From Acholoe squamosa (lineage: Eukaryota; Annelida; Polychaeta; Phyllodocida; Polynoidae): DNA of 64,000 nt. The notes under the pieces were generated by a model. That model saw only the letters and a program-made list of their open reading frames with translations. It searched no databases and was not told the origin of the DNA. Position numbers and translations under genes: made by a program. Below, one piece after another: positions 4,621 through 40,002 of the stretch. How positions within the stretch are numbered: position 1 is the stretch's first letter; the number at the start of each line of letters is the position of its first letter. Location of the stretch: contig OX439051.1 in NCBI GenBank assembly GCA_949317995.1, positions 38,753,250 through 38,817,249 of the forward strand, given 5' to 3'.

Positions 4621-5307
4621 ATGCTTAAGTATACTATGATTTTGAAACTCTCAAAATTAGAGTGGGTGATTATAAGTAGTGTCTTATGACTGCTCTGTGC
4701 ACTCAGCATGTAATGTAGTGATTACATAGGGTTTGGTAGAGCAGTCGTAGCAGTTTAATCTTTGGTGACAACTAGATTTAGGGCTGTAATGGCACTAAAG
4801 TGAGGGATCCCACTACGATTTGACGGGGTTTAGTCTTGAGAAATGCCTTCCTGTTTTTGACCATTAAGAAAAACTACAAAAGCCTTCAATTTTCAATTCT
4901 TATGTGCAGCTTTGAGCTAAATCCTTAATAGATGATTTATAGACAGGTGCGGCTATGCTGAAACTAACTGTACCTAAGATCAAAATACATACTTGCTTGA
5001 TAGGCACAGAACGTGATCCCATCTACTGAATCTTTTTGTGTCACTTTGCAAGGAGAATTGAGAGAAGCCTTGAAAGCTAGACATAAAAAAAATGAATGAA
5101 ACAAAGGGTTTTCAAAGAAGGATATTTGGTAGCATCCAGTGTCACAGTGTGCCCTAAAGCTCCAAGAGCCCGGTGGTCATTTCTTAAAGGACTACGATCA
5201 CATACACCCCTCCGACTTGAATTCTGAATGTCATTCTGATGAAAATTTATTTACCGGGGTTCAGTCGTAGTATATTTTCTTACAAAATAGATAGTATTGA
5301 CCTAGTG

Positions 5308-6261: not shown

Positions 6262-8424
6262 TGGTCAAAAACCATAGAAACAGAGCATATCCTATTTTTG
6301 GCACTTCCGTCGGCCCCTGTACTTAGATTTTTGATTTTTTCTTGGATTTTTTTTGCTAATATCATCGGGCTCGATGAGTTCTTGATGTTACATATAGGTT
6401 TTTGGGGTGGGAAATTGATATTTTAGTCTCCAGGGCCTCAAAATAGGCCAAAATTGACCCTAAATGAGCAAAATAATCCCCCAAAATATATAAAAAAAAA
6501 AATATTTTCAGGAAATCGTACCAAATATGTGAGTTTCCATTTAAGTTACATACATTTGGTGGTTGGACATTGTATTAGAGCCAAACATCCCCCAACTGGC
6601 CTGACTTCTTGTATAGTATGGGAGCATTTGAAGTTTGGTGAAGGTGTGTGTCTTGGCGAGTGATTATGCCTTATACCCCCTCCCCTAAAAAATCAGAGAG
6701 ATCCATGGGTTCAAAAATGCCTTTAAAAAATAGAGCAAGGTTATATCTAACATGTGTAAAAAAATGGGAGGGCTCCATTAATAAACATGGAAATGAAAGG
6801 CTCATACCTCATCTCAGCAAGACAAGCCATTCTAGGGAAGACAATTTCGGGAAGACAGAATAAAATAATTTTTCCTCCTCCTGTTCAGGATTTGAATATC
6901 TAACTCTTCTAAACATGTCAGTAATTTTCCCCTATCACATACCTAAGTGACCAATGTGTAAAATGATTATTTATTGCCTATCCTCTGCAACAGCAGAGCT
7001 TGGAAGGAGATTTTTGTCTGGGCGAGATAGTGTCTTGGCGAGTGATTTTTGAGTAATATGCCAAGTTTAGGGCTTGATTTTTTAAATAAATAATTATCAT
7101 ATCATCACAAAAGTCTCAGATCTGGACCATTTTGACCTGTAGATTATGGAAATCAAGTTTATATTAATGGCAGAGGTGTCCTTATTGTCATAAAATCCAC
7201 ATACTTTTGATAAATGATTATCACGATTCCATTGCCATTTCTGTCTTACCAAGGAAATAAATGATTTTGACCCCGCTGTATACAGTTGGTATACTTAACT
7301 ATTCTAAATATGTCAGTAATGTTCCCCTATCACAAACCTAAGTAAACAATGTGTAAAATAGTTACTTATTCCCCATCCTCTGCAACAGCAGAGCTTGGAA
7401 GGAGATTTTTGTCTGGGCGAGATAGTGTCTTGGCGAGTGATTTTTGAGTAATATGCCAAGTTTAGGGCTTGATTTTTTGAATAAATAATTATCATATCAT
7501 CACAAAAGTCTCAGATCTGGACCATTTTGACCTGAAGATTATGAAAATCACGTTTTTATTAATGGCAGAGGTGTCCTTATTGTCATAAAATCCATGTAGT
7601 TTTGATAAATGATTATCACGATTCCATTCCTATTTCTGTCTTACCAAGGAAATGAATGATTTTGATCCTGCTGTATACAGTTGGTATATTTTTATCTATT
7701 CTACATATGTTAGTAATTTTCCCCTATCACATACCTAAGTAAACAATGTGTAAAATAGTTACTTACTGCCCATCCTCTGCAACAGCAGAGCTTGTAAGGA
7801 GATTTTTGTCTTGGCGAGAGAGTGTCTTGGCGAGTGATTTTTGAGAATCATGCCATGTTCAATTGAAATTTCTTAGGTATACAAAGATTTTTCCCCCATT
7901 AAAGGTATATACCATCTGAAAGTAGATGTATTGGGCATTCTCCTCCATATGATTGATAGTTCCTATCTATCTCTCTCTCCCTTTTATGAAGAATGACAGA
8001 TAATGAACATTTTCTTCCCTCAATTTTACCTAAAATCCAAGTGTCAGTACTGGAGGGAAATGCCCCATTGCCAAAGAAAAATCACAGAATATCTTATCAC
8101 AACTCTCTAAACCCAACATTTAGACCCAGTTGTACAAGGATAATAACATAAAAGACCATTATTAATATATAAAAGCACATATAGGAGGCCTTAGGGGTAT
8201 TTACCCCCAATTATCACTCGCCAAGACACTGTTTCCAGGGTATGTACCTTTGGGGCGTTGCCATGGCAACCGTTTTCATATTTAACTAATAATATCTTGT
8301 GAGGAGGTACCCCAACACCTATACACTATCCACAAAAAAAATCTTTAAGATAGTCCTAGGTTTGGTTCCAGACCCCCCCCCAGCCCAAGGGGGGGATATG
8401 CTCTGTTTCTATGACTTATGACCC
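6262..8424. mobile_element. TIR element F, 2.2 kb, TA-flanked
   Basis: The left end TGGTCAAAAACCATAGAAAC and the right end (reverse complement GGGTCATAAGTCATAGAAAC) continue into a shared CAGAGCATATCC, giving TIRs of about 30 bp; TA lies outside both ends. The phrase TGTCTTGGCGAGTGAT occurs near 6646, repeatedly inside, and inverted near 8212-8230. No transposase frame is visible, so it is non-autonomous despite its size. Confidence 0.65.
6890..7860. repeat. 395-bp tandem repeat, about 2.4 copies
   Basis: Units start near 6890, 7286 and 7683 (the word GTCAGTAATNTTCCCC at 6917, 7312 and, with one change, 7709), a period of 395-397 bp. Each unit carries GCAACAGCAGAGCTTG, GTGTCTTGGCGAGTGATTTT and TCTCAGATCTGGACCATTTT. 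The third unit stops after the GCGAGTGATTTTTGAG segment. Divergence between units looks like a few percent. The array lies wholly inside element F. Confidence 0.85.
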
Positions 8425-17785: not shown

Positions 17786-17974
17786 GTGCCAATGGGAGTA
17801 CCTGGTCGCGCTTACCTCACCGTTCCACCTGAGTTGGTGATTGCGCCTTCTAGGATTCATGGTTTTGGTGTTTTCACTGTCACCTTCATACCTATGTACA
17901 CATGGCTAGGAGAGTATGAAGGGGAGATTGTCAACTTGGACCATGTCAGATCCACCAGTGAATATGCCTACACT
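17786..17974 (+). CDS. PR/SET exon, N-terminal half
   Basis: Carries the start of the PR domain through SEYAYT. If the GTGGGT donor is not used the frame would run on to a stop near 18008 after GFARYFFAST, which breaks the domain; splicing at 17974 restores it. Confidence 0.75.
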
Positions 17975-18782
17975 GTGGGTTTTGCCAGATATTTTTTTGC
18001 ATCAACTTAACATATATTTAGATGATTAACGGTAGGATTTTATGTTTTGAGTTTGCCTTACATGGCTGATACAGCCCTACCAGTAACAAAGTCACTAGGG
18101 GCCATGAAGAATACTTCTTTGGCTGTCAAAGTTCACTTTCCCTGATTGCCAACCATTTTATTGATTAGAGCATGTAATTAAATATTACACAGTTTCAACC
18201 GGTGCACCTTTCTGGGTGTCTATCTGGTTATGATATGGCCCAGATCCAGTCCAAAATAGAAAAAAAGCACCATTTTTGTTACAACACACTTTTCTATCAT
18301 TTCCTTGAAATAAACCCTATCAGAAATAAAGAAGTAAGTAGCTATTCCTTTTCCATAAAGCTCCATAAATCTAATTTTTACAGATTTACAGGAATGGGTC
18401 CAGCACTGCATACATCGATGGCTTCCACCTCCACCTCAGTTCCTATCACCGCTACGTTAATGGGGCGATGAGGTATAAGGACCAGAATGTTGTGGCTAAG
18501 GAGTGCTATAGTAGGATTTATTACATGACCATTAAGGATATACCACCAGGTGATGAACTTTTAATGTACTATGGGCATGAATACCATAGCTGGCATCTTG
18601 GCATTGACCTCAATCAGTATTTTGAAGTACCCAAGAGACTACTTCAAAGTGGGCTTGATTTAAACAATCAGTACCATCAGAAGTGTATTATGAAAACAGG
18701 AATGGAATTCCAGAATATCAAATATCTACCATTATCATGGTTTACCAAGGTTATAACTGAGAAAAATAAAAGCAAACCATAA
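17786..18782 (+). CDS. PR/SET-domain protein (PRDM7/9-like), 3' exons
   Basis: Two exons, 17786-17974 and 18384-18782, give one continuous PR/SET domain. Exon 1 follows acceptor CCCTTAG and reads VPGRAYLTVPPELVIAPSRI then HGFGVFTVTFIP and GEYEGEIV (the GPYEG block of PRDM9). Exon 2 follows TTTTTACAG and gives RNGSSTAYIDG (YVDG block), SSYHRYVN (WMRYVNCAR block), QNVVAKECYSRIYYMTIKDI and PPGDELLMYYGHEY (ELLVWYGDEY block). The donor is ACT/GTGGGT and both exons are in phase 0. PRDM7/9 enzymes methylate histone H3 at K4 and K36; activity here is inference. The Cys of the RYVNCAR block is Gly here. After the domain 45-50 residues follow to a stop at 18780, with no zinc finger. 5' exons were not found. 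An AATAAA lies 450 bp downstream. Confidence 0.8.
18384..18782 (+). CDS. PR/SET exon, C-terminal half and stop
   Basis: 133 codons including the stop. The acceptor at 18383 is preferred over the AG of TTTACAGG 7 bases further on, because it keeps frame with exon 1 and supplies IYRNGSS. The tail after LGIDLNQYF is lysine-rich and ends EKNKSKP. Confidence 0.8.
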   Translation: MYRNGSSTAYIDGFHLHLSSYHRYVNGAMRYKDQNVVAKECYSRIYYMTIKDIPPGDELLMYYGHEYHSWHLGIDLNQYFEVPKRLLQSGLDLNNQYHQKCIMKTGMEFQNIKYLPLSWFTKVITEKNKSKP

Positions 18783-20527: not shown

Positions 20528-21596
20528 CTGGAGGACATTTCTCAAGATGGTACGACAAGATAGAACCAGTACGACTTGAAACGCTCAACATAAAAGTGGG
20601 TAATCATAGGCAACATACTATGACTACTCTGTACGATCAGCACTTAAGGCAGTAATTATATAAGGTTTGGTAGGGCAGTCATACCAGTACAATTATGAGC
20701 GACCACTAGGTGCAGGGCTGTAATGATTATTTAACTGCATAGAAAAAAAAAATTCCAAATGTTAGTCATATATGAGTCAAATCGTCTAACTTTCTAGCAA
20801 TAGTTAGTCAAAACGCCGTCTTTAAACGTCCCTCTTTTTCTTAGATGAATATGACTAACCTATAGACAAAGTGGCCAAATTGCCTTGGCTTGCCTGATTT
20901 TGACTAGGATTCCTTGGTTGTTTTAACTAAGTACACTACTTAATATTTTTACTTCAATTCAACTGGTGATTGTGTTAAGCTCTATGTAGAATTCACACCT
21001 GACAGATCAGAGTCTCCTAATTGAGGAACCATTTGAAATGCCTCACACCTTATTCATTTAGAACCCCTGAGCCAAAGTACTCTGGCTTTCCTACAAAGAA
21101 GCAAATTCAAATGTGGATATTGTATTTATCTAGATTGCCACAGAATAGGTATTCCTCTCTGACTACCTATTTCATTTGACAAGGCATCAACCTATTTGGT
21201 ACATTGTACCAAGTGCAATTTTAGATTGAATTTTGAAAGCCTCAAATACATGTAGTTTCTGAAAATCATCATAATTTTGACATCCATGGAACTATTTATT
21301 GTACCCACCCACCAGACAAATCCTGTTTAAAAACCATGCTGCCATCTGGTGTGTAAAGGTAACACCATGTGTCTATCCCTTAGTCAAATTTACTAATGGA
21401 CCTTGGTCAAAATTACTAAGATCTCATAGTGAAAGTGACTAAGATATCTTAGCTTGCCTGAAACTCCCAGCAGATACCCTGTTTAAGATTTGGCCAAATT
21501 GCCTTAAGTTTTCTTAGGTATGTTTTTTTGTGTGTGAGGGATCTCACTATGACTTGAAGGGGGTCTAGTCGTAACATCTTGAGAAATGCCTTCCTG
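20528..21596. mobile_element. MITE family E, copy 2
   Basis: Left end CTGGAGGACATTTCTCAAG, right end reverse complement CAGGAAGGCATTTCTCAAG. It shares GGTTTGGTAGGGCAGTCATA and the terminal GGGATCTCACTATGACTTGA block with copy 1. The middle differs from copy 1 and is rich in TTAGTCAAA/ACTAAG words. The left edge of the large tandem duplication (21041) falls inside it, so only its right half is repeated at 27101-27647. Confidence 0.6.
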
Positions 21597-21790
21597 GTGG
21601 GTTACTTGCCTATAGGCTCCATTCATGAGCATGCAGCATAACAACATGACATTCTATAGCATGTCCTTTATGGGGGATTGCCAGGAACATGATATGATAT
21701 GGTGGCCAAATAGTTTCTCTCTGTCAACAAAGAAGTCATACCCGCCCCTACAGAATAGAGCACACACCTGTGTGCATATCATTTATGTGG

Positions 21791-21797
21791 TATAAAT
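21791..21797 (+). promoter_or_regulatory. TATA box, peptide gene unit 1
   Basis: TATAAAT, with a first exon and a consensus donor following within 125 bp. The 150 bp upstream are shared with unit 2 (TATA at 27842) and, in diverged form, with the block at 26085. Confidence 0.65.
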
Positions 21798-21819
21798 ACA
21801 ATGTCATGGAAGTCTGCGT

Positions 21820-21915
21820 CTCAGACAGCCAAAGATCTTCTACTAGGAAACACCTCTCAGGTACCAGATACTAACATTATATATCAACACATTTCCCGCC
21901 TGCTCTTGATTCAGG
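21820..21915 (+). other. Untranslated first exon, peptide gene unit 1
   Basis: The start is estimated at about 25-30 bp after the TATA box; the end is set by TTCAGG/GTAAGC. ATGs at 21800-21805 lie at or before the likely start. A frame starting there is open to the donor but meets a stop soon after joining the next exon out of frame with the signal peptide, so I read this exon as 5' UTR. Confidence 0.5.
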
Positions 21916-22727
21916 GTAAGCATTTCCTGCACTGTAAGAAAAGAGTTTTTTGCAAAATGATTGCAACTCAGGGGCAGCTTTGAGCGCAAATCTTTCACTG
22001 TTATTCTTATAGAGATTCCCCATAGCACATAAATGCTTTGCTGCAAGGTTTTCACTGTTCAGTTTACTGGGATGCCTAGTAGATTCAATTGCTATTTTGC
22101 ACTGTACAAAGAACATTTTCACATTCTGTTTAATGTATTTGAGTCACTATAGTTGAAGTGTCTTGCGGCTTATTCATTTTGGTTATCATTATTTTGGCCC
22201 TTGATATATCTCTACCATACATTCTCTAATTCAGAACCTTATGTTATTGCTTGCCAAAGCTGTGACAATGGGATTATTTATCGTACTGGCAATTCTTTTG
22301 AGACTCTGGGTTTATGAAACAATTCATTATGTTATGCCTTGATATACTTGCACCAATAACCTTTCCTTGTTCTTTTGTCCATTAATAATTTGATAGAATT
22401 GTCATTAAATGTGTTAGTAAACAAGTCAAAAATACAGAAGGGTGGTCCCTGCAAAACTGATGGTCGACTTTGAGTCACCGAGATTATCATGGCATTGTGT
22501 TAATCACCTGTTAATTAATGTAGTTCACCTTATATCAAATCATATCTGAAGTAAACTCCTGCATTTTGAATATCTGTATAAACAACAAGACATGGACGGG
22601 TACACAAAACTAAGTTTTCATATTCTAGAATCCTTGAAGGCGCACTGAATTGAGGACCTATGTCCACCAACGTTAGCACTGTGGCAGACGTAGCCAACTC
22701 AGAGTTCCTTTAAAATTGTTCTTTCAG

Positions 22728-23250
22728 ATGAGTTTCACAATGATATTCATGAAGGCAGCAATGGTAGTTTGTGCTCTCCTCCACGTACAGGCCATACAGG
22801 CTGAAGGCGATGGCATAGGTAAGAATACTTGACAGGATTTGATGGACCATGTACCAGTAAAAGTTAAATGAAAAAAGCAATATTTACCATAAAACCATGT
22901 GTATATGTTCCACCCATATTGAAGCCACATTTGTAGGATCCGTGATATTGCCTTTTGGCTCACGCAAGTAACCCTATTCGACATACTTAGCGCACATACC
23001 ACAATAAGCACACACGCCCCCTCCTTTCTCAACTCCAATGTTTGACTGTTTTGAAGCCCAATTATACTCTTAACATTCCTTTTTATTTGAAGCGCGCTGT
23101 GGGCTAATTAGTTTGAGTATGTATAACTGACACATAAAAGGAATAATACATACATAAGGCAACACTCTGGCTGTTTATCTATGATCATTTTCTTGATATT
23201 ACATTTGTTTTGCAGGGGAGAAAGGCTGCACTCCTGATTGTGACTGGTAA
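22728..23250 (+). CDS. Small secreted two-cysteine peptide, copy 1
   Basis: Exons 22728-22818 and 23216-23250. The first follows TTCTTTCAG, begins with ATG and ends CATAG/GTAAGA in phase 1. The second follows TTGTTTTGCAG and supplies the matching two bases, so the product is 41 aa. Residues 1-25 form a signal peptide: hydrophobic core AAMVVCALL, then HVQAIQA with Ala at -1 and -3 positions suited to signal peptidase. The predicted mature part is EGDGIGEKGCTPDCDW, with Cys35 and Cys39 able to close a small ring. Copy 1 alone has Ile6 and Lys9; the others have Val6 and Met9. The stop overlaps a donor-like TG/GTAACT, so splicing past it is possible. I do not recognise the family and assign no function. 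Confidence 0.6.
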
Positions 23251-23847
23251 CTGTCAGATCATTGCTGACTAAGCATGGGACACAGAACTTGCTTTGGGGA
23301 GCTTCTGTCAAAAAATGCCCTTGATATATCTCTACCATACATTCTCTAATTCAGAACCTTATGTTATTGCTTGCCAAAGCTGTGACAATGGGATTATTTA
23401 TCGTACTGGCAATTCTTTTGAGACTCCGGGTTTATGAAACAATTCATTATGTTATGCCTTGATATACTTGCACCAATAACCTTTCCTTGTTCTTTTGTCC
23501 ATTAATAATTTGATAGAATTGTCATTAAATGTGTTAGTAAACAAGTCAAAAATACAGAAGGGTGGTCCCTGCAAAACTGATGGTCGACTTTGAGTCACCG
23601 AGATTATCATGGCATTGTGTTAATCACCTGTTAATTAATGTAGTTCACCTTATCTCAAATCATATCTGAAGTAAACACCTGCATTTTGAATATCTGTATA
23701 AACAACAAGACATGGACGGGTACACAAAACTAAGTTTTCATATTCTAGAATCCTTGAAGGCGCACTGAATTGAGGACCTATGTCCACCAACGTTAGCACT
23801 GTGGCAGACGTAGCCAACTCAGAGTTCCTTTAAAATTGTTCTTTCAG

Positions 23848-24370
23848 ATGAGTTTCACAATGGTATTCATGATGGCAGCAATGGTAGTTTGTGCTCTCCT
23901 CCACGTACAGGCCATACAGGCTGAAGGCGATGGCATAGGTAAGAATACTTGACAGGATTTGATGGACCATGTACCAGTAAAAGTTAAATGAAAAAAGCAA
24001 TATTTACCATAAAACCATGTGTATATGTTCCACCCATATTGAAGCCACATTTGTAGGATCCGTGATATTGCCTTTTGGCTCACGCAAGTAACCCTATTCG
24101 ACATACTTAGCGCACATACCACAATAAGCACACACGCCCCCTCCTTTCTCAACTCCAATGTTTGACTGTTTTGAAGCCCAATTATACTCTTAACATTCCT
24201 TTTTATTTGAAGCGCGCTGTGGGCTAATTAGTTTGAGTATGTATAACTGACACATAAAAGGAATAATACATACATAAGGCAACACTCTGGCTGTTTATCT
24301 ATGATCATTTTCTTGATATTACATTTGTTTTGCAGGGGAGAAAGGCTGCACTCCTGATTGTGACTGGTAA
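23848..24370 (+). CDS. Small secreted two-cysteine peptide, copy 2
   Basis: Exons 23848-23938 and 24336-24370, same phases and splice sites as copy 1. It differs from copy 1 at residues 6 (Val) and 9 (Met); the predicted mature peptide is identical. No promoter or first exon of its own: it would need the unit 1 first exon, giving a choice among three acceptor exons. Confidence 0.6.
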
Positions 24371-24967
24371 CTGTCAGATCATTGCTGACTAAGCATGGGA
24401 CACAGAACTTGCTTTGGGGAGCTTCTGTCAAAAAATGCCCTTGATATATCTCTACCATACATTCTCTAATTCAGAACCTTATGTTATTGCTTGCCAAAGC
24501 TGTGACAATGGGATTATTTATCGTACTGGCAATTCTTTTGAGACTCCGGGTTTATGAAACAATTCATTATGTTATGCCTTGATATACTTGCACCAATAAC
24601 CTTTCCTTGTTCTTTTGTCCATTAATAATTTGATAGAATTGTCATTAAATGTGTTAGTAAACAAGTCAAAAATACAGAAGGGTGGTCCCTGCAAAACTGA
24701 TGGTCGACTTTGAGTCACCGAGATTATCATGGCATTGTGTTAATCACCTGTTAATTAATGTAGTTCACCTTATCTCAAATCATATCTGAAGTAAACACCT
24801 GCATTTTGAATATCTGTATAAACAACAAGACATGGACGGGTACACAAAACTAAGTTTTCATATTCTAGAATCCTTGAAGGCGCACTGAATTGAGGACCTA
24901 TGTCCACCAACGTTAGCACTGTGGCAGACGTAGCCAACTCAGAGTTCCTTTAAAATTGTTCTTTCAG

Positions 24968-25490
24968 ATGAGTTTCACAATGGTATTCATGATGGCAGCA
25001 ATGGTAGTTTGTGCTCTCCTCCACATACAGGCCATACAGGCTGAAGGCGATGGCATAGGTAAGAATACTTGACAGGATTTGATGGACCATGTACCAGTAA
25101 AAGTTAAATGAAAAAAGCAATATTTACCATAAAACCATGTGTATATGTTCCACCCATATTGAAGCCACATTTGTAGGATCTGTGATATTGCCTTTTGGCT
25201 CACGCAAGTAACCCTATTCGACATACTTAGCGCACATACCACAATAAGCACACACACCCCCTCCTTTCTCAACTCCAATGTTTGACTGTTTTGAAGCCCA
25301 ATTATACTCTTAACATTCCTTTTTATTTGAAGCGTGCTGTGGGCTAATTAGTTTGAGTATGTATAACTGACACATAAAAGGAATAATACATACATAAGGC
25401 AACACTCTGGCTGTTTATCTATGATCATTTTCTTGATATTACATTTGTTTTGCAGGGGAGAAAGGCTGCACTCCTGATTGTGACTGGTAA
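24968..25490 (+). CDS. Small secreted two-cysteine peptide, copy 3
   Basis: Exons 24968-25058 and 25456-25490. It has Ile20 in place of Val20 within the signal peptide; the mature part is unchanged. This is the only copy of unit 1 followed by the unique 3' UTR and the AATAAA at 25740. Confidence 0.6.
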
Positions 25491-25739
25491 CTGTCAGATC
25501 ATTGCTAACTAAGCATGGGACACAGAACTTGCTTTGGGGAGCTTCTGTCAAAAAATGGACATTCAAACCTTTTGATTGTTAAGGTTAATATATGTAGGCT
25601 ATGTGCAAGCCTAAGAGCAAAAGCAAACATCTGCCTATATTACCCTCCAATAACCAAAAGTGTGCATGCAGCTGGACCATTGCGATTTAGTAATACAATT
25701 GCCTTCAACCAAAATGTTTTCTTTTCATTGATAAGAGCA

Positions 25740-25745
25740 AATAAA
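25740..25745 (+). terminator. AATAAA poly(A) signal, peptide gene unit 1
   Basis: GCAAATAAAACTTGATG, 250 bp after the stop of copy 3; repeated in unit 2 at 29548. Confidence 0.6.
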
Positions 25746-26084
25746 ACTTGATGCATGTTACATCACCATTGTTTACTTTCCCTACAAGAATGAAGTACAA
25801 ATATCCCAAACACCCAAACTGACAATCGTCCTGATGAGTGAATGTTATGAAGGATTAGCAATATGCACAAATGCCTCAAATAGAATTACCAGGGAAGCAG
25901 CCATGCATGATGACAACCATTGGGCATGATGTATTATGCATTTATAGGGTTAACCTTGCTTGCTCAGCAGTTGTCACTCAGCCGGCACAGATGTTATTCC
26001 TCAGAAGGTATATGGCAAACTGCCACTGGCCCATGTACAAAACCTATCATGGCTTGATATAGCGTTCAGATAAGACACTGTTGA

Positions 26085-26264
26085 TCTAGTTGTGTATTCT
26101 GCCCTATATCAGTGACTGCCAGGGACATGATAACACTTCGTGGCAAAACAGTTCCTCTCTGTGAACAAACAGGTCATATGAACATATCATTAATGTGAAA
26201 TAAAGAGAGACATATAGGAATCTCCCTCCCAGATGGCTAAATATATTCTACCTGCACAGGACTG
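26085..26264 (+). promoter_or_regulatory. Diverged copy of the peptide-gene promoter
   Basis: ACTGCCAGGGACATGATAAC, TTCCTCTCTGTGAACAAAC and CATATCATTAATGTG line up in order and spacing with ATTGCCAGGAACATGATATG, TTTCTCTCTGTCAACAAAG and CATATCATTTATGTG upstream of the TATA box at 21791. The TATA word has become AAATAAAG. A TTAA-flanked MITE (26269) lies where the first exon or intron should be. Likely a remnant of an older paralogue. Repeated in unit 2 at about 29895-30072. Confidence 0.55.
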
Positions 26265-26268
26265 TTAA

Positions 26269-26845
26269 GGTGAGGCTTCACTACGTGATTTTTGCAGAGA
26301 ATCGCAGCAATTCTCAGAAAATGGGAGACAAACATGGGTAGAGAGTAGTATTTGTTACCATTACAAGGTATAATGTGTATATTGAAGGGGGTATTTGCTC
26401 ATCTTGGGATGTGATTGTGTGCAATCTCAAGCATGCTTGTGTTGTCAAAGAGATGTTTTTGTTTACTAAATCAAGCTGATGTTATGTAAACATTGCAGAC
26501 TTCCACATTGGGAAGTCTGCAACTCAATATCAGACAGGTTTGATTTTTTACAGTACAAGACCCTGCGATCTGTGTGACTGCTGTGTTGTTATTTATATTT
26601 TGCTGTGTTGATGTTTATATACTGAACTCCAACCCAATCACAGAGTGTATGCAGGTGCAGGTTAGTTTGTAAATATGGCGCACAAGGAAAGAGATCACCC
26701 ATGTAATGATTCCTGAAATCTCATGTTTATATTTTTGAATCTCATGTTGACAATATAGGAATGTCAACACCCTATAGCTTAGGCACTATAGGGATAGCAG
26801 TTAGTTAGAGAATGTGCCAAATAATCGCGTAGTGGAGTCTCCACT
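26269..26845. mobile_element. TTAA-flanked MITE family L, unit 1
   Basis: The left end GGTGAGGCTTCACTACGTGA and the right end (reverse complement AGTGGAGACTCCACTACGCG) are inverted repeats; TTAA stands at 26265-26268 and 26846-26849. TTAA duplication points to a piggyBac- or Kolobok-type source. It carries an inner hairpin GCAGACTTCC...GGAAGTCTGC near 26488-26520. No coding frame. Confidence 0.75.
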
Positions 26846-27841
26846 TTAATTACCAGATAGTAACATAAGATCAGCACATCTGCAGACTGCCCTCTAGGGG
26901 TAAACTAGTACCATTGTACTTTAACTTAAAGAGAATGCTGTCAAGGTAATGGCAGTTCTGAGACAACTTTGAGGCAAAGCTTCAATTATTATTGTCAATG
27001 AGCGCTTGGAGGAAGAGAAGGCAGAAAAAGATAGGGAGAGGAAGGAGAAGGCAGGAAAGGAGCGCCAGGAGGAGGAAGTAAAACGTGGGGAAGATAAATG
27101 CCTCACACCTTATTCATTTAGTACCCCTGAGCCAAAGTACTCTGGCTTTCCTACAAAGAAGCAAATTCAAATGTGGATATTGTATTTATCTAGATTGCCA
27201 CAGAATAGGTATTCCTCTCTGACTACCTATTTCATTTGACAAGGCATCAACCTATTTGGTACATTGTACCAAGTGTAATTTTAGATTGAATTTTGAAAGC
27301 CTCAAATACATGTAGTTTCTGAAAATCATCATAATTTTGACATCCATGGAACTATTTATTGTACCCACCCACCAGACAAATCCTGTTTAAAAACCATGCT
27401 GCCATCTGGTGTGTAAAGGTAACACCATGTGTCTATCCCTTAGTCAAATTTACTCATGGACCTTGGTCAAAATTACTAAGATCTCATAGTGAAAGTGACT
27501 AAGATATCTTAGCTTGCCTGAAACTCCCAGCAGATACCCTGTTTAAGATTTGGCCAAAGTTTTCTTAGGTATGTTTTTTTGTGTGTGAGGGATCTCACTA
27601 TGACTTGAAGGGGGTCTAGTCGTAACATCTTGAGAAATGCCTTCCTGGTGGGTTACTTGCCTATAGGCTCCATTCATGAGCATGCAGCATAACAACATGA
27701 CATTCTATAGCATGTCCTTTATGGGGGATTGCCAGGAACATGATATGATATGGTGGCCAAATAGTTTCTCTCTGTCAACAAAGAAGTCATACCCGCCCCC
27801 ACAGAATAGAGCACACACCTGTGTGCATATCATTTATGTGG

Positions 27842-27848
27842 TATAAAT
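27842..27848 (+). promoter_or_regulatory. TATA box, peptide gene unit 2
   Basis: TATAAAT, the copy of the unit 1 box, 6051 bp downstream. The first exon ends at about 27966 with the same donor. Confidence 0.65.
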
Positions 27849-28778
27849 ACAATGTCATGGGAGTCTGCGTCTCAGACAGCCAAAGATCTTCTACTAGGAA
27901 ACACCTCTCAGGTACCAGATACTAACATTATATATCAACACATTTCCCGCCTGCTCTTGATTCAGGGTAAGCATTTCCTGCACTGTAAGAAAAGAGTTTT
28001 TTGCAAAATGATTGCAACTCAGGGGCAGCTTTGAGTGCAAATCTTTCACTGTTATTCTTATAGAGATTCCCCATAGCACATAAATGCTTTGCTGCAAGGT
28101 TTTCACTGTTCAGTTTACTGGGATGCCTAGTAGATTCAATTGCCATTTTGCACTGTACAAAGAACATTTTCACATTCTGTTTAATGTATTTGAGTCACTA
28201 TAGTTGAAGTGTCTTGCGGCTTATTCATTTTGGTTATCATTATTTTGGCCCTTGATATATCTCTACGATACATTCTCTAATTCAGAACCTTATGTTATTG
28301 CTTGCCAAAGCTGTGACAATGGAATTATTTATCGTACTGGCAATTCTTTTGAGACTCCGGGTTTATGAAACAATTCATTATGTTATGCCTTGATATACTT
28401 GCACCAATAACCTTTCCTTGTTCTTTTGTCCATTAATAATTTGATAGAATTGTCATTAAATGTGTTAGTAAACAAGTCAAAAATACAGAAGGGTGGTCCC
28501 TGCAAAACTGATGGTCGACTTTGAGTCACCGAGATTATCATGGCATTGTGTTAATCACCTGTTAATTAATGTAGTTCACCTTATATCAAATCATATCTGA
28601 AGTAAACTCCTGCATTTTGAATATCTGTATAAACAACAAGACATGGACGGGTACACAAAACTAAGTTTTCATATTCTAGAATCCTTGAAGGCGCACTGAA
28701 TTGAGGACCTATGTCCACCAACGTTAGCACTGTGGCAGACGTAGCCAACTCAGAGTTCCTTTAAAATTGTTCTTTCAG

Positions 28779-29298
28779 ATGAGTTTCACAATGGTATTCA
28801 TGATGGCAGCAATGGTAGTTTGTGCTCTCCTCCACATACAGGCCATACAGGCTGAAGGCGATGGCATAGGTAAGAATACTTGACAGGATTTGATGGACCA
28901 TGTACCAGTAAAAGTTAAATGAAAAAAGCAATATTTACCATAACACCATGTGCATATGTTCCGACCATATTGAAGCCACATTTGTAGGATCCGTGATATT
29001 GCCTTTTGGCTCACGCAAGTAACCCTATTCGACATACTTAGCGCACATACCACAATAAGCACACACACCCCCTCCTTTCTCAACTCCAATGTTTGACTTT
29101 GAAGCCCAATTATACTCTTAACATTCCTTTTTATTTGAAGCGCGCTGTGGGCTAATTAGTTTGAGTATGTATAACTGACACATAAAAGGAATAATACATA
29201 CATAAGGCAACACTGTGGCTGTTTATCTATGATCATTTTCTTGATATTACATTTGTTTTGCAGGGGAGAAAGGCTGCACTCCTGATTGTGACTGGTAA
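28779..29298 (+). CDS. Small secreted two-cysteine peptide, copy 4
   Basis: Exons 28779-28869 and 29264-29298 in unit 2, with its own TATA box, first exon and poly(A) signal: a complete stand-alone gene. It has Val6, Met9 and Ile20 like copy 3, but upstream it matches copy 1 at sites such as TTATATCAAAT and AAACTCCTGC. Intron 2 lacks 3 bp present in the others. The mature peptide is identical to copies 1-3. Confidence 0.65.
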
Positions 29299-29547
29299 CT
29301 GTCAGATCATTGCTGACTAAGCATGGGACACAGAACTTGCTTCGGGGAGCTTCTGTCAAAAAATGGACATTCAAACCTTTTGATTGTTAAGGTTAATATA
29401 TGTAGGCTATGTGCAAGCCTAAGAGCAAAAGCAAACATCTGCCTATATTACCCTCCAATAACCACCAGTGTGCATGCAGCTGGACCAGTGCGATTTAGTA
29501 ATACAATTGCCTTCAACCAAAATGTTTTCTTTTCATTGATAAGAGCA

Positions 29548-29553
29548 AATAAA
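29548..29553 (+). terminator. AATAAA poly(A) signal, peptide gene unit 2
   Basis: Same context as 25740, 250 bp after the stop of copy 4. Confidence 0.6.
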
Positions 29554-29894
29554 ACTTGATGCATGTTACATCACCATTGTTTACTTTCCCTACAAGAATG
29601 AAGTACAAATATCCCAAACACCCAAACTGACAATCGTCCTGATGCGTGAATGTTATGAAGGATTAGCAATATGCACAAATGCCTCAAATAGAATTACCAG
29701 GGAAGCAGCCATGCATGATGACAACCATTGGGCATGATGTATTATGCATTTATAGGGTTAACCTTGCTTGCTCAGCAGTTGTCACTCAGCCGGTACAAAT
29801 GTTATTCCTCAGAAGGTATATGGCAAACTGCCACTGGCCCTTGTACAAAACCTATCATGGCTTGATATAGCGTTCAGATAAGACACTGTTGATC

Positions 29895-30072
29895 TAGTTG
29901 TGTATTCTGCCCTATATCAGTGACTGCCAGGGACATGATAACACTCCGTGGCAAAACAGTTTCTCTCTGTGAACAAACAGGTCATATGTGCATATCATTA
30001 ATGCGAAATAAAGAGAGACATATAGGAATCTCCCTCCCAGACGGCTAAATATATTCTACTTGCACACTACTG
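29895..30072 (+). promoter_or_regulatory. Diverged promoter copy, unit 2
   Basis: Unit 2 counterpart of 26085-26264. It keeps TGTGCATATCATTAATG, closer to the live promoter than unit 1 does at that spot. Confidence 0.5.
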
Positions 30073-30076
30073 TTAA

Positions 30077-30654
30077 GGTGAGGCTCCACTACGTGATTTT
30101 TGCAGAGAATCGCAGCAATTCTCAGAAAATGGGAGATAAACATGGGTAGAGAGTAGTATTTGTTACCATTACAAGGTATAATGTGTATATTGAAGGGGGT
30201 ATTTGCTCATCTTGGGATGTGATTGTGTGCAATCTCAAGCATGCCTGTGTTGTCAAAGAGATGTTTTTTGTTTACTAAATCAAGCTGATGTTATGTAAAC
30301 ATTGCAGACTTCCACATTGGGAAGTCTGCAACTCAATATCAGACAGGTTTGATTTTTTACAGTACAAGACCCTGCGATCTGTGTGACTGCTGTGTTGTTA
30401 TTTATATTTTGCTGTGTTGATGTTTATATATTGAACTCCAACCCAATCACAGAGTGTATGCAGGTGCAGGTTAGTTTGTAAATATGGCACACAAGGAAAG
30501 AGATCACCCATGTAATGATCCCTGAAATCTCATGTTTATATTTTTGAATCTCATGTTGACAATATAGGAATGTCAACACCCTATAGCTTAGGCACTATAG
30601 GGATAGCAGTTAGTGAGAGAATGTGCCAAATAATCGCGTAGTGGAGTCTCCACT
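30077..30654. mobile_element. TTAA-flanked MITE family L, unit 2
   Basis: Duplicate of 26269-26845 by the large tandem duplication. The left TIR here (GAGGCTCCACTACG) matches the right TIR better than the unit 1 copy does. TTAA at 30073-30076 and 30655-30658. Confidence 0.75.
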
Positions 30655-30779
30655 TTAATTACCAGATAGTAACATAAGATCAGCACATCTGCAGACTGCC
30701 CTCTAAAGGTAAACTAGTACCATTGTACTTTAACTTAAAGAGAATGCTGTCAAGGTAATGGCAGTTCTGAGACAACTTT

Positions 30780-32640
30780 GAGGCAAAGCTTCAATTATTA
30801 TTGTCAATGAGCGCTTGGAGGAAGAGAAGGCAGAAAAAGATAGGGAGAGGAAGGAGAAGGCAGGAAAGGAGCGCCAGGAGGAGGAAGTAAAACGTGGGGA
30901 AGATCAGGGAACAAAGGCGGAGAAGGCAGAAAAGGAGAAGTGGAGGGAGCGAGTGGGGGAAGGAGCTGCGGCTACAGTGATGGTCCCGGAGGGGATTCCG
31001 GCGGAGGTGGGGAAGGCAACAGACTCGGAAGCTTCGCTGGAGGATGTGGAGGGGCCTAAGGTACTGGTGATTACCAAGTGTAGGGTAGTACCAGTGGAAA
31101 CAGAAACAGACTTACTTGCGGGGGAGGGTCACCCCGTACCGGAGCTCTACGCCACCCAGTAACGCCGGACAAGAAGACATCAGGAAGGGAGGCGCGACAC
31201 CGCGGTGGACTTATGCCCTGGAGCAGCGGCTACATTGGCCACCCCACTCTCTGCACCTATTCGGAGATGATCGGCTCCCAACCCAACTTGAGTCCAGATA
31301 TGACTATCATCCCCAGAGGACATCAAACAACAGACATCGTCTCCCTGTCTGGAGGGGAATTCAAACTGGTCCAGACATTCCTGCTGAGGTACGGTCCAAC
31401 AGAGGTAGGACGCAACTTCTGCATAGAGTGTGGGCGGCGGGTGGAGAAGGGCAATCAACCGACTACCAGTCACCAGGCGGGTAAGTGTTAAAGGTCACTA
31501 TCTTTGCAAGGGTCTTCGGAGAGGCAGCTGCCAAATATACGGAGCCCGGAGAAGAACGGTAGAAGATAGGGGAAGAAATCAGGGTCTGGAGTATACGGCC
31601 CGGAGTCAGGTACGGGGTGGACTGTTGCCTAGGACAAGGTCGTCAAAATATAGGGAACTCAACCGGGGTCCTTCTGTAGTACTTGCAGACGAGGAGCGTT
31701 GAGGGGGTGCTGGAGACGCAGGAGAAGCAGGCACCAGGGAGGACACCACGGTCCTGGACAATGTTGGGGCATTGGAGCAGCCGGACGGAGCTGCTTTTAT
31801 AAACATTGGCGGTAAAGGCCAGAGTTAATCAAGTATGGGAGCCTCACAAGGAGGTGCAGCCCATCGGAGTGGTCAGAGCACTCAGAGCAGCAGGCTGGAG
31901 ATGATTGTATAAACATTGGCAGTAAAGGCCAGAGTTAATCAAGTATGGGAGCCTCACGAGGAGGTGCAGCCCTTCGGAGCAGTCAGAGCACTCAGAGACC
32001 TGGCTATAGAGTAAAGGAGACTCAAGACCAGTGTGATTCAGTTTATTGAGATACTGTACATGTGTAAATGGTTAAGGAGTGTAGGGCACAGTAGGGGACC
32101 CATGCCAGGACATTAGCATCGTAAGTTAGGTTCCTGCTAGGAGGAACGGCTTTCTCTCCTATAGATTAAAGTTAGCAGGGGAGAGTGTGGCGGTAAGGCC
32201 GAGGGAGGTGAGACGAGGCCGAAACCATATTGGATGGGGGCAGTGAAGTCTCGTTCTCTCGGAGCCCAAGCCAGAGCGGAATAGAGATAAGTGAGTCTCC
32301 GACGCTGGAGTGACCCCAAGGTCGGAGACAACGGTTACTATATAAGGAAGCTTGGAGTCAAAGACAGTCAGTCTGGCACCAGAGTTTATTGAAGTCACAA
32401 GTAATAGCCTTGAAGAAGTTATCTCCGAGGACCAGAGAGCTCCGAGTAGATTATGCGGATTATGCAGATGTCCTAAATATAAGCCCTATAGTCTTTGAAA
32501 AAGGAATCTTGATGAAGCAAATTGAGATCGAGATTAGCATATTGTAAATCGGAACTGAATAAAATGCAAAAGTCTGGATATAAGTGTTCCTTCTCTTCCT
32601 TGTTGACTAAGACACCACTGTATGAGTACTACTCATTCCC
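30780..32640 (+). mobile_element. Broken LTR-retroelement remnant (fossil)
   Basis: A GC-richer block with a charged gag-like start (EEEKAEKDRERKEKAGKER at about 30815), further short coding remnants to about 31700, a 113-bp tandem repeat at 31797-32005, a purine tract, and a 3' LTR from about 32186. It is broken, with several breaks, and lacks a recognisable pol and a 5' LTR. Family not set (Gypsy- or BEL-like are possible). A fragment of its left end is present at 26990-27095 because the large duplication cut through it, so it predates that duplication. Confidence 0.45.
32186..32620 (+). repeat. LTR-like 3' end of the fossil element
   Basis: It starts TGTGGCGGTAAGG straight after the purine tract GCAGGGGAGAG. 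A TATA-like CTATATAAGG lies at about 32338 and AATAAA at 32559, the order of promoter and poly(A) signal expected in an LTR. The right end is uncertain. Confidence 0.45.
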
Positions 32641-39939: not shown

Positions 39940-40002
39940 ATGGAGTCGTTTGAGAAGAGGAGAGAGGATGTGATAGCTGTGGTACTAAATCTGTTGTACA
40001 TG
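39940..40002 (+). CDS. Tetraspanin exon 1
   Basis: 21 codons from ATG to TACATG/GTAGGT, giving the cytosolic N-terminus and the first half of helix 1. Chosen because its phase, strand and hydrophobic end complete helix 1 when joined to exon 2. Confidence 0.7.

Follow-up and report, generated by a model that had tools for sequence, protein, structure and literature searches.

A young tandem exon array in a candidate secreted-peptide gene of the annelid Acholoe squamosa

The window analysed here, a stretch of 64,000 nucleotides from the polynoid annelid Acholoe squamosa (assembly GCA_949317995.1, contig OX439051.1, positions 38,753,250 to 38,817,249 of the forward strand), contains a predicted gene for a small secreted peptide in which a signal-peptide exon and a cysteine exon are present three times in succession. 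This array is a new and young example of tandem exon duplication for which no new mechanism is required, and it has the appearance of an ordinary duplication of recent date, seen apparently not long after an unequal crossover. The gene that carries it, called here gene A, is followed by a tandem copy, gene B, with a single pair of these exons. The explanation that best accounts for the whole of these data combines a duplication into A and B, an array made by crossing-over, one promoter, and an mRNA joining the first exon to a single exon 2 and to the last exon 3 (exon 3c); it is given a probability of roughly 0.6. The order of events, the transcription, the splicing choice and the effect on fitness that it proposes are inferred from the DNA sequence.

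A comparison of the window with itself by BLAST bears out the three head-to-tail copies described in the initial annotation, each with one signal-peptide exon and one cysteine exon, over positions 22198-25557 (Table 1). The three units are all exactly 1120 bp long, without a single indel, and the mismatches amount to 5 between units 1 and 2, 10 between units 1 and 3 and 5 between units 2 and 3 (99.1-99.6% identity). Every unit extends from the inside of intron 1 to 67 bp beyond the stop codon and includes exon 2, a 397-bp intron and exon 3. As head-to-tail copies of exon plus intron at high identity, all three belong to the class of tandem exon duplications. Among 20 control stretches from the same genome, 9 contained direct repeats 200 bp or longer, and those with 95% identity or more were short-period satellites (about 40-70 bp); no tandem unit of at least 500 bp at 98% was found in any of the 20, which at 10 kb each would let larger arrays escape. 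When the unit was searched against the genome (1.48 Gb, 63 contigs; 40 of 702 first-look candidates scored), the unit was recovered at full length four times (three times in A, once in B) among the 43 matches listed, the other 39 covering only an approximately 80-bp interspersed repeat. One contig of this genome bears a COX1 gene with 11 in-frame TGA codons; in 4341 bases surrounding it, nad3, nad2, cox1, cox2 and the beginning of cox3 were recognised by eye, following one another on a single strand as is usual in annelids, so that the host is probably an annelid on this evidence as well. Elsewhere in the window, a separate tandem repeat with a 395-bp unit (2.4 copies, 92% matches) occupies positions 6896-7859.

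Table 1. Positions within the window of the peptide genes, their exons, repeats and signals
Feature	Position	Strand	Remark	Basis
Gene A copy	21036..27095	+	three-unit array inside	self-BLAST, junctions
TATA box of gene A (TATAAATA)	21791..21798	+		
Non-coding first exon	21822..21915	+	start predicted about 30 nt past the TATA box	donor AGG/GTAAGC
Unit 1	22198..23317	+		self-BLAST
Interspersed repeat, about 80 bp, before exon 2a	22633..22714	+	other copies 23753-23834, 24873-24954 and in gene B	
Exon 2a, signal peptide, 91 bp	22728..22818	+		reading frame, structural scan
Switch interval of unit 2, from unit-3 type to unit-1 type	22754..22784	+	unit-1 coordinates; inside exon 2	
Exon 3a, coding part (cysteine peptide, stop)	23216..23250	+		reading frame
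Unit 2	23318..24437	+	unit-3 type at left, unit-1 type at right; no private differences	self-BLAST, site comparison
Exon 2b, signal peptide, 91 bp	23848..23938	+		reading frame, structural scan
Exon 3b, coding part	24336..24370	+		reading frame
Unit 3	24438..25557	+		self-BLAST
Exon 2c, signal peptide, 91 bp	24968..25058	+	protein the same as that of gene B	reading frame, structural scan
Exon 3c, coding part	25456..25490	+	the only one of the three with AATAAA before the next unit	
AATAAA poly(A) signal of gene A	25740..25745	+	250 nt beyond the exon 3c stop	
Gene B copy	27096..30904	+	single unit 28248-29365	self-BLAST
Gene B exons	28779-28869 and 29264-29298	+		reading frame, structural scan
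Gene B signals	TATAAA 27842; AATAAA 29548	+		

The exons themselves are short. Exon 2 opens with an ATG placed directly at the acceptor, and exon 3 contributes 35 coding bases including the stop. The predicted precursor measures 41 amino acids in each of the three units, and the frame is open in all four copies, gene B included. Only three amino-acid differences separate the precursors of the array, all within the first 20 residues; the residues that follow agree in all three, which confirms the earlier statement that the mature peptide is identical in every unit. Exon 2 holds 3 of the 10 array differences, all of them non-synonymous and altering the signal peptide, and the probability of three or more of the ten in coding sequence is 0.09, so that no sign of constraint is seen. 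The coding prediction is without support from conservation, since no homologue is found beyond A and B and the four copies are too alike for a test of selection. A structural scan, defined by an acceptor, an ATG, a hydrophobic start, a donor, a second acceptor and a short two-cysteine tail with thresholds taken from the peptide gene itself, was applied to both strands. It retrieved four places in the window, namely the three array units and gene B, and none in the 20 control stretches (200 kb). Relaxing the thresholds brought up a single additional place, at 39940 of the window, and the controls still gave none.

Splice sites were scored with a weight matrix that is not fitted to the host genome, the acceptor being scored with a shorter tract; a first acceptor scoring at a threshold of 6 had listed no site. 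On this scale the exon-2 acceptor is moderate (250th of 3862 plus-strand AGs) and that of exon 3 ranks 30th. The donor of the first exon ranks 27th of 3530 plus-strand GT sites, with a score of 5.4 versus 0.9 for a possible alternative donor at 21860, and there is no ATG between 21822 and 21914.

The search for relatives of the peptide in its own genome gave eight matches, all of them exons of A and B, under settings that strongly diverged relatives would escape. Among the Pfam profiles only Chorion_2 appeared (E 0.09; 14 bits, under the 26-bit cut-off), the PDB returned no match at E values up to 10, and the last seven residues of the peptide have no match in full-text papers. No membership in a named family of secreted peptides is therefore found among the Pfam profiles, the PDB structures and the genome itself, and the product may be described as a candidate lineage-restricted secreted peptide.

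With a single TATA box followed by a first exon and a single AATAAA between 21801 and 25800, one transcription unit with repeated exons is the natural reading of the locus, as had been proposed at the outset. The single promoter would drive gene A, with transcripts running to about 25760, and the likeliest productive mRNA would consist of exon 1, a single one of exons 2a, 2b and 2c, and exon 3c. The isoforms predicted to be clean are those built from exon 1, any single exon 2 and exon 3c, and the three of them that were computed encode the same mature peptide, which would thus be unchanged whichever copy of exon 2 is used. The interchangeable exon pairs suggested by the initial annotation are not well supported, given that AATAAA follows the last cysteine exon only and that 91-nt exons used in series break the frame. 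Exons 3a and 3b break off 67 nt past their stops and continue directly into intron-1 sequence.

The consequences of this broken frame define the first competing explanation. If splicing by default strings together two or three copies of exon 2, gene A would make mostly frame-shifted RNA and be a damaged duplicate, and gene B would be the working gene. On this view exons 3a and 3b, each lacking both a good donor and an AATAAA, would not be defined as exons; in exon 3a the highest-scoring donor (2.9, versus 4.9 for exon 2) overlaps the stop. A frame shift leading to a wrong product of 55 amino acids results in 4 of the 4 combinations computed, whether two copies (3/3) or all three are placed in series. 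The stop would then lie 14 nt before the last junction with two copies (3/3) and 105 nt before it with three, and under the usual rule the latter distance would invite decay. Against this, exon 2a could equally well be paired with exon 3a, which lies 397 bp away, and the stronger acceptor belongs to exon 3. A gene A damaged in this manner is considered unlikely, and a single exon 2 spliced to exon 3c is preferred.

The same frame shift bears on the proposal that copy number tunes the output of the gene. A precedent for a boost is available in the excerpts of PMC3731216 on frog genes, but tuning does not follow from the identity of the mature peptide, which is uninformative in this respect because no disagreement would be expected between such young copies over some 45 coding bases. 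Since serial copies break the frame, a reduction of the output by additional units is no less likely than an increase. The extra units would be near-neutral or would slightly reduce the yield of correct mRNA.

The initial picture of a single gene was incomplete, in that the array sits inside a larger tandem duplication whose second member, the single-unit gene B, had been overlooked. According to self-BLAST, A and B are 98.4-98.6% identical; indels apart, they differ at 7 of 1152 positions in the 5' flank, at 12-13 of 1117 in the units and at 25 of 1538 in the 3' flank (0.6-1.6%). Their join is clean and gapless and, read by eye, the junction has no base in common with the outer ends. A search of the genome with the promoter (591-base query; 40 of 777 first-look candidates scored) produced two full-length matches, A and B, among the 41 listed. 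The other 39 cover query bases 1-68 or fewer, 37 of them inside the first 50, and correspond to an interspersed repeat.

Several other elements were observed around the two genes. Behind the peptide gene within copy A, at 26100-26260, lies a decayed-looking promoter with a first exon, whose B copy is at 29908-30060. This relic agrees with the promoter and first exon at 61 of 79 bases, then at 52 of 72 through the TATA region, and at 34 of 45 at 26851-26893; neither the structural scan nor BLAST with the unit detected an exon 2 or exon 3 behind it, and from its sequence it seems to be an older, decayed member of the family. Upstream of the peptide genes, 17786-18782 carries SET/PR-domain coding sequence (Pfam PRDM2_PR, E 1e-16; SET, E 1e-5, at 18384-18782), with no Pfam match in 17786-17977. 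The GC-rich stretch 30795-32500, within the beginning of which the A/B duplication unit ends, shows, when read by eye, charged sequence that looks coding, together with a motif resembling CIECG, and it resembles part of an LTR-type element. Two short stretches, 4642-4853 and 20576-21596, the latter just before gene A, are 75-78% alike with their order kept; this likeness is likely to reflect a dispersed repeat, since 20576-21596 overlaps a repeat with many matches in the genome. The Rfam and tRNA scans of the window gave no hit.

Gene B also provides an outgroup with which the ten variable sites of the array were polarised. Five derived sites belong to unit 1 (22307, 22743, 22753, 22785 and 23016) and five to unit 3 (22534, 22557, 22941, 23095 and 23267 in unit-1 coordinates). 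Unit 2 shows the unit-3 state at the five left sites and the unit-1 state at the five right sites, and it has no change of its own; the switch falls within exon 2, in the 31 bp separating 22753 from 22785. Among the 1024 possible patterns for ten independent sites, 20 contain at most one switch, and the absence of private changes in unit 2, where five would be expected, has a Poisson probability of 0.007, both figures being post hoc. A middle copy with a single switch and no private change is the recombinant expected from unequal crossing-over, although an assembly artefact would leave the same trace. A crossover leading from two units to three would yield unit 1, then a unit with the left part of unit 3 and the right part of unit 1, then unit 3, and this direction matches the array.

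The DNA itself shows the repeats, the mosaic make-up of unit 2, the open frames and the signals in the sequence; the following order of events is suggested. The peptide gene would first have been duplicated in tandem to give A and B. Within A, a single duplication would then have copied the segment that begins at the end of intron 1, spans exon 2, intron 2 and exon 3 and closes 67 bp after the stop codon, with a junction homology that, read by eye, is at most one base. The two resulting units would have drifted by five changes apiece, and a single unequal crossover within exon 2 would finally have generated the third.

The same trace in unit 2 requires that a faulty assembly be considered, with a true number of one or two units and a middle unit, or even the A/B doubling, created by misjoined reads or alleles. 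A middle unit without any private difference fits a wrong assembly path as well, and the 0.6-1.6% differences between A and B could be allelic, as such divergence can be in an outbred invertebrate. On the other hand, the window contains no N, the tandem join between A and B is clean, and units 1 and 3 both have changes of their own, so that an artefact appears quite unlikely. The competing explanations weighed here are not mutually exclusive, an artefact being compatible with any splicing outcome. An array produced by crossing-over remains the likelier reading.

The signals found inside the units call for a third alternative, in which each unit would be a small gene of its own, starting at a TATAAA and ending at the ATTAAA of the next unit, giving three genes instead of one. 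The initial annotation had counted only one TATA box and one poly(A) end, and both counts were overstated. The TATA box at 21791 is the sole one associated with a first exon, but TATAAA also occurs at 22577, 23697 and 24817, 151 bp upstream of each exon-2 ATG. Likewise, AATAAA is found in 21801-25800 only at 25740, but ATTAAA is present at 23524 and 24644, 274 nt past the stops of units 1 and 2, together with weaker variants; beyond the signal of gene A, a further AATAAA lies at 26199, within the relic promoter region. These internal signals leave room for units acting alone. They are common enough to be random: at the rates of the 20 control stretches, one or more TATAAA would turn up in 530 bp with a probability of 0.27, and ATTAAA in 300 bp with a probability of 0.14. 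Intron 1 of gene B contains them too (TATAAA at 28628, ATTAAA at 28455), and in this single-unit gene the ATTAAA would merely truncate the transcript. The better promoter is the upstream TATA box, with its ATG-free first exon and its good donor. Three independent genes are thus very unlikely, and one promoter for the whole array remains the preferred reading.

The interspersed repeat of about 80 bp precedes every exon 2. It is found on many chromosomes, is imperfectly palindromic and ends 13 bp upstream of the start of exon 2; judging from an alignment of 4 among the 39 other genome matches, it may be a small DNA transposon, one edge of which contributes to the splice-acceptor region. Its capacity to form a hairpin is relevant to a regulated, mutually exclusive splicing of the Dscam type, in which competing RNA structures in the introns would select one exon 2; the excerpts of PMC6071210 propose that the tandem duplication of an exon and its intron generates such structures. 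The pairing energy of two copies of the repeat is -56.4 kcal/mol versus -24.2 for a single copy, values obtained with no shuffle control. The hairpin is unexceptional for its composition (z -1.5, 17 of 200 shuffles being as good), and the repeat aligns well with its own reverse complement over 11 bp only. The unique part of intron 1 and the 3' UTR pair with parts of the unit no more strongly than dinucleotide shuffles do in 6 of 6 tests. Docking-type pairing was not found in this weak test, 56 to 100 of 100 shuffles being at least as strong in whole-length duplex energy, a measure that a short site may escape. The mature peptide would moreover be the same in all isoforms. A regulated choice of this kind is considered very unlikely. 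It would be a similarly long shot that the number of units in A (1, 2 or 3) still varies in the population through crossovers in exon 2, altering the amount of an unchanged peptide through the number of exon-2 starts in competition for the one terminal exon, with pairing of the repeats helping the choice of a single copy.

Gene organisations of this type have been described in other animals. In the excerpts of PMC3731216, the caerulein and magainin genes of Xenopus laevis contain tandem-repeated peptide exons with almost no divergence, unequal crossing-over is named as a route to more copies of the frog peptide genes, and the exon repeats are suggested to boost peptide synthesis per transcript. 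The same source reports, for the cpf-St4/cpf-St5 pair of Silurana, that a gene without its own terminal exon is combined with that of its neighbour. Like these caerulein and magainin genes, gene A is a short secreted-peptide gene with near-identical tandem peptide exons; unlike them, as far as those excerpts go, its repeated exon 2 breaks the frame and its exon 3 ends in a stop. For these two reasons no polyprotein is expected from the copies of gene A, and peptide exons repeated in one frame within one mRNA, as in a precursor of the caerulein type, are not found.

The comparison extends to Drosophila, where the excerpts of PMC9013439 describe arrays of duplicated initial exons in hydra, mostly beside DINE-1 transposons, and arrays of terminal exons in pip. 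The exons of both genes are reported there as mutually exclusively spliced, and at least four of the nine hydra exons can start transcription. The array studied here resembles those of hydra and pip, as presented in that source, in lying within one gene, and differs in that the internal terminal exons of gene A are devoid of AATAAA. A route leading from tandem duplication to mutually exclusive splicing in Dscam-like clusters is outlined in the excerpts of PMC6071210. The tandem duplication of exon and intron is shared with Dscam as portrayed there, but gene A displays no diversity of its mature product and, in a weak test, no docking pairing.

The interest of this locus is that it offers a clean snapshot of the birth of an exon array, with gene B as an outgroup and, next to two units that have drifted, a third one recombined exactly from the two. 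If the copy number varies between animals, the array would provide a natural test of the effect of extra exons on output before their sequences diverge.
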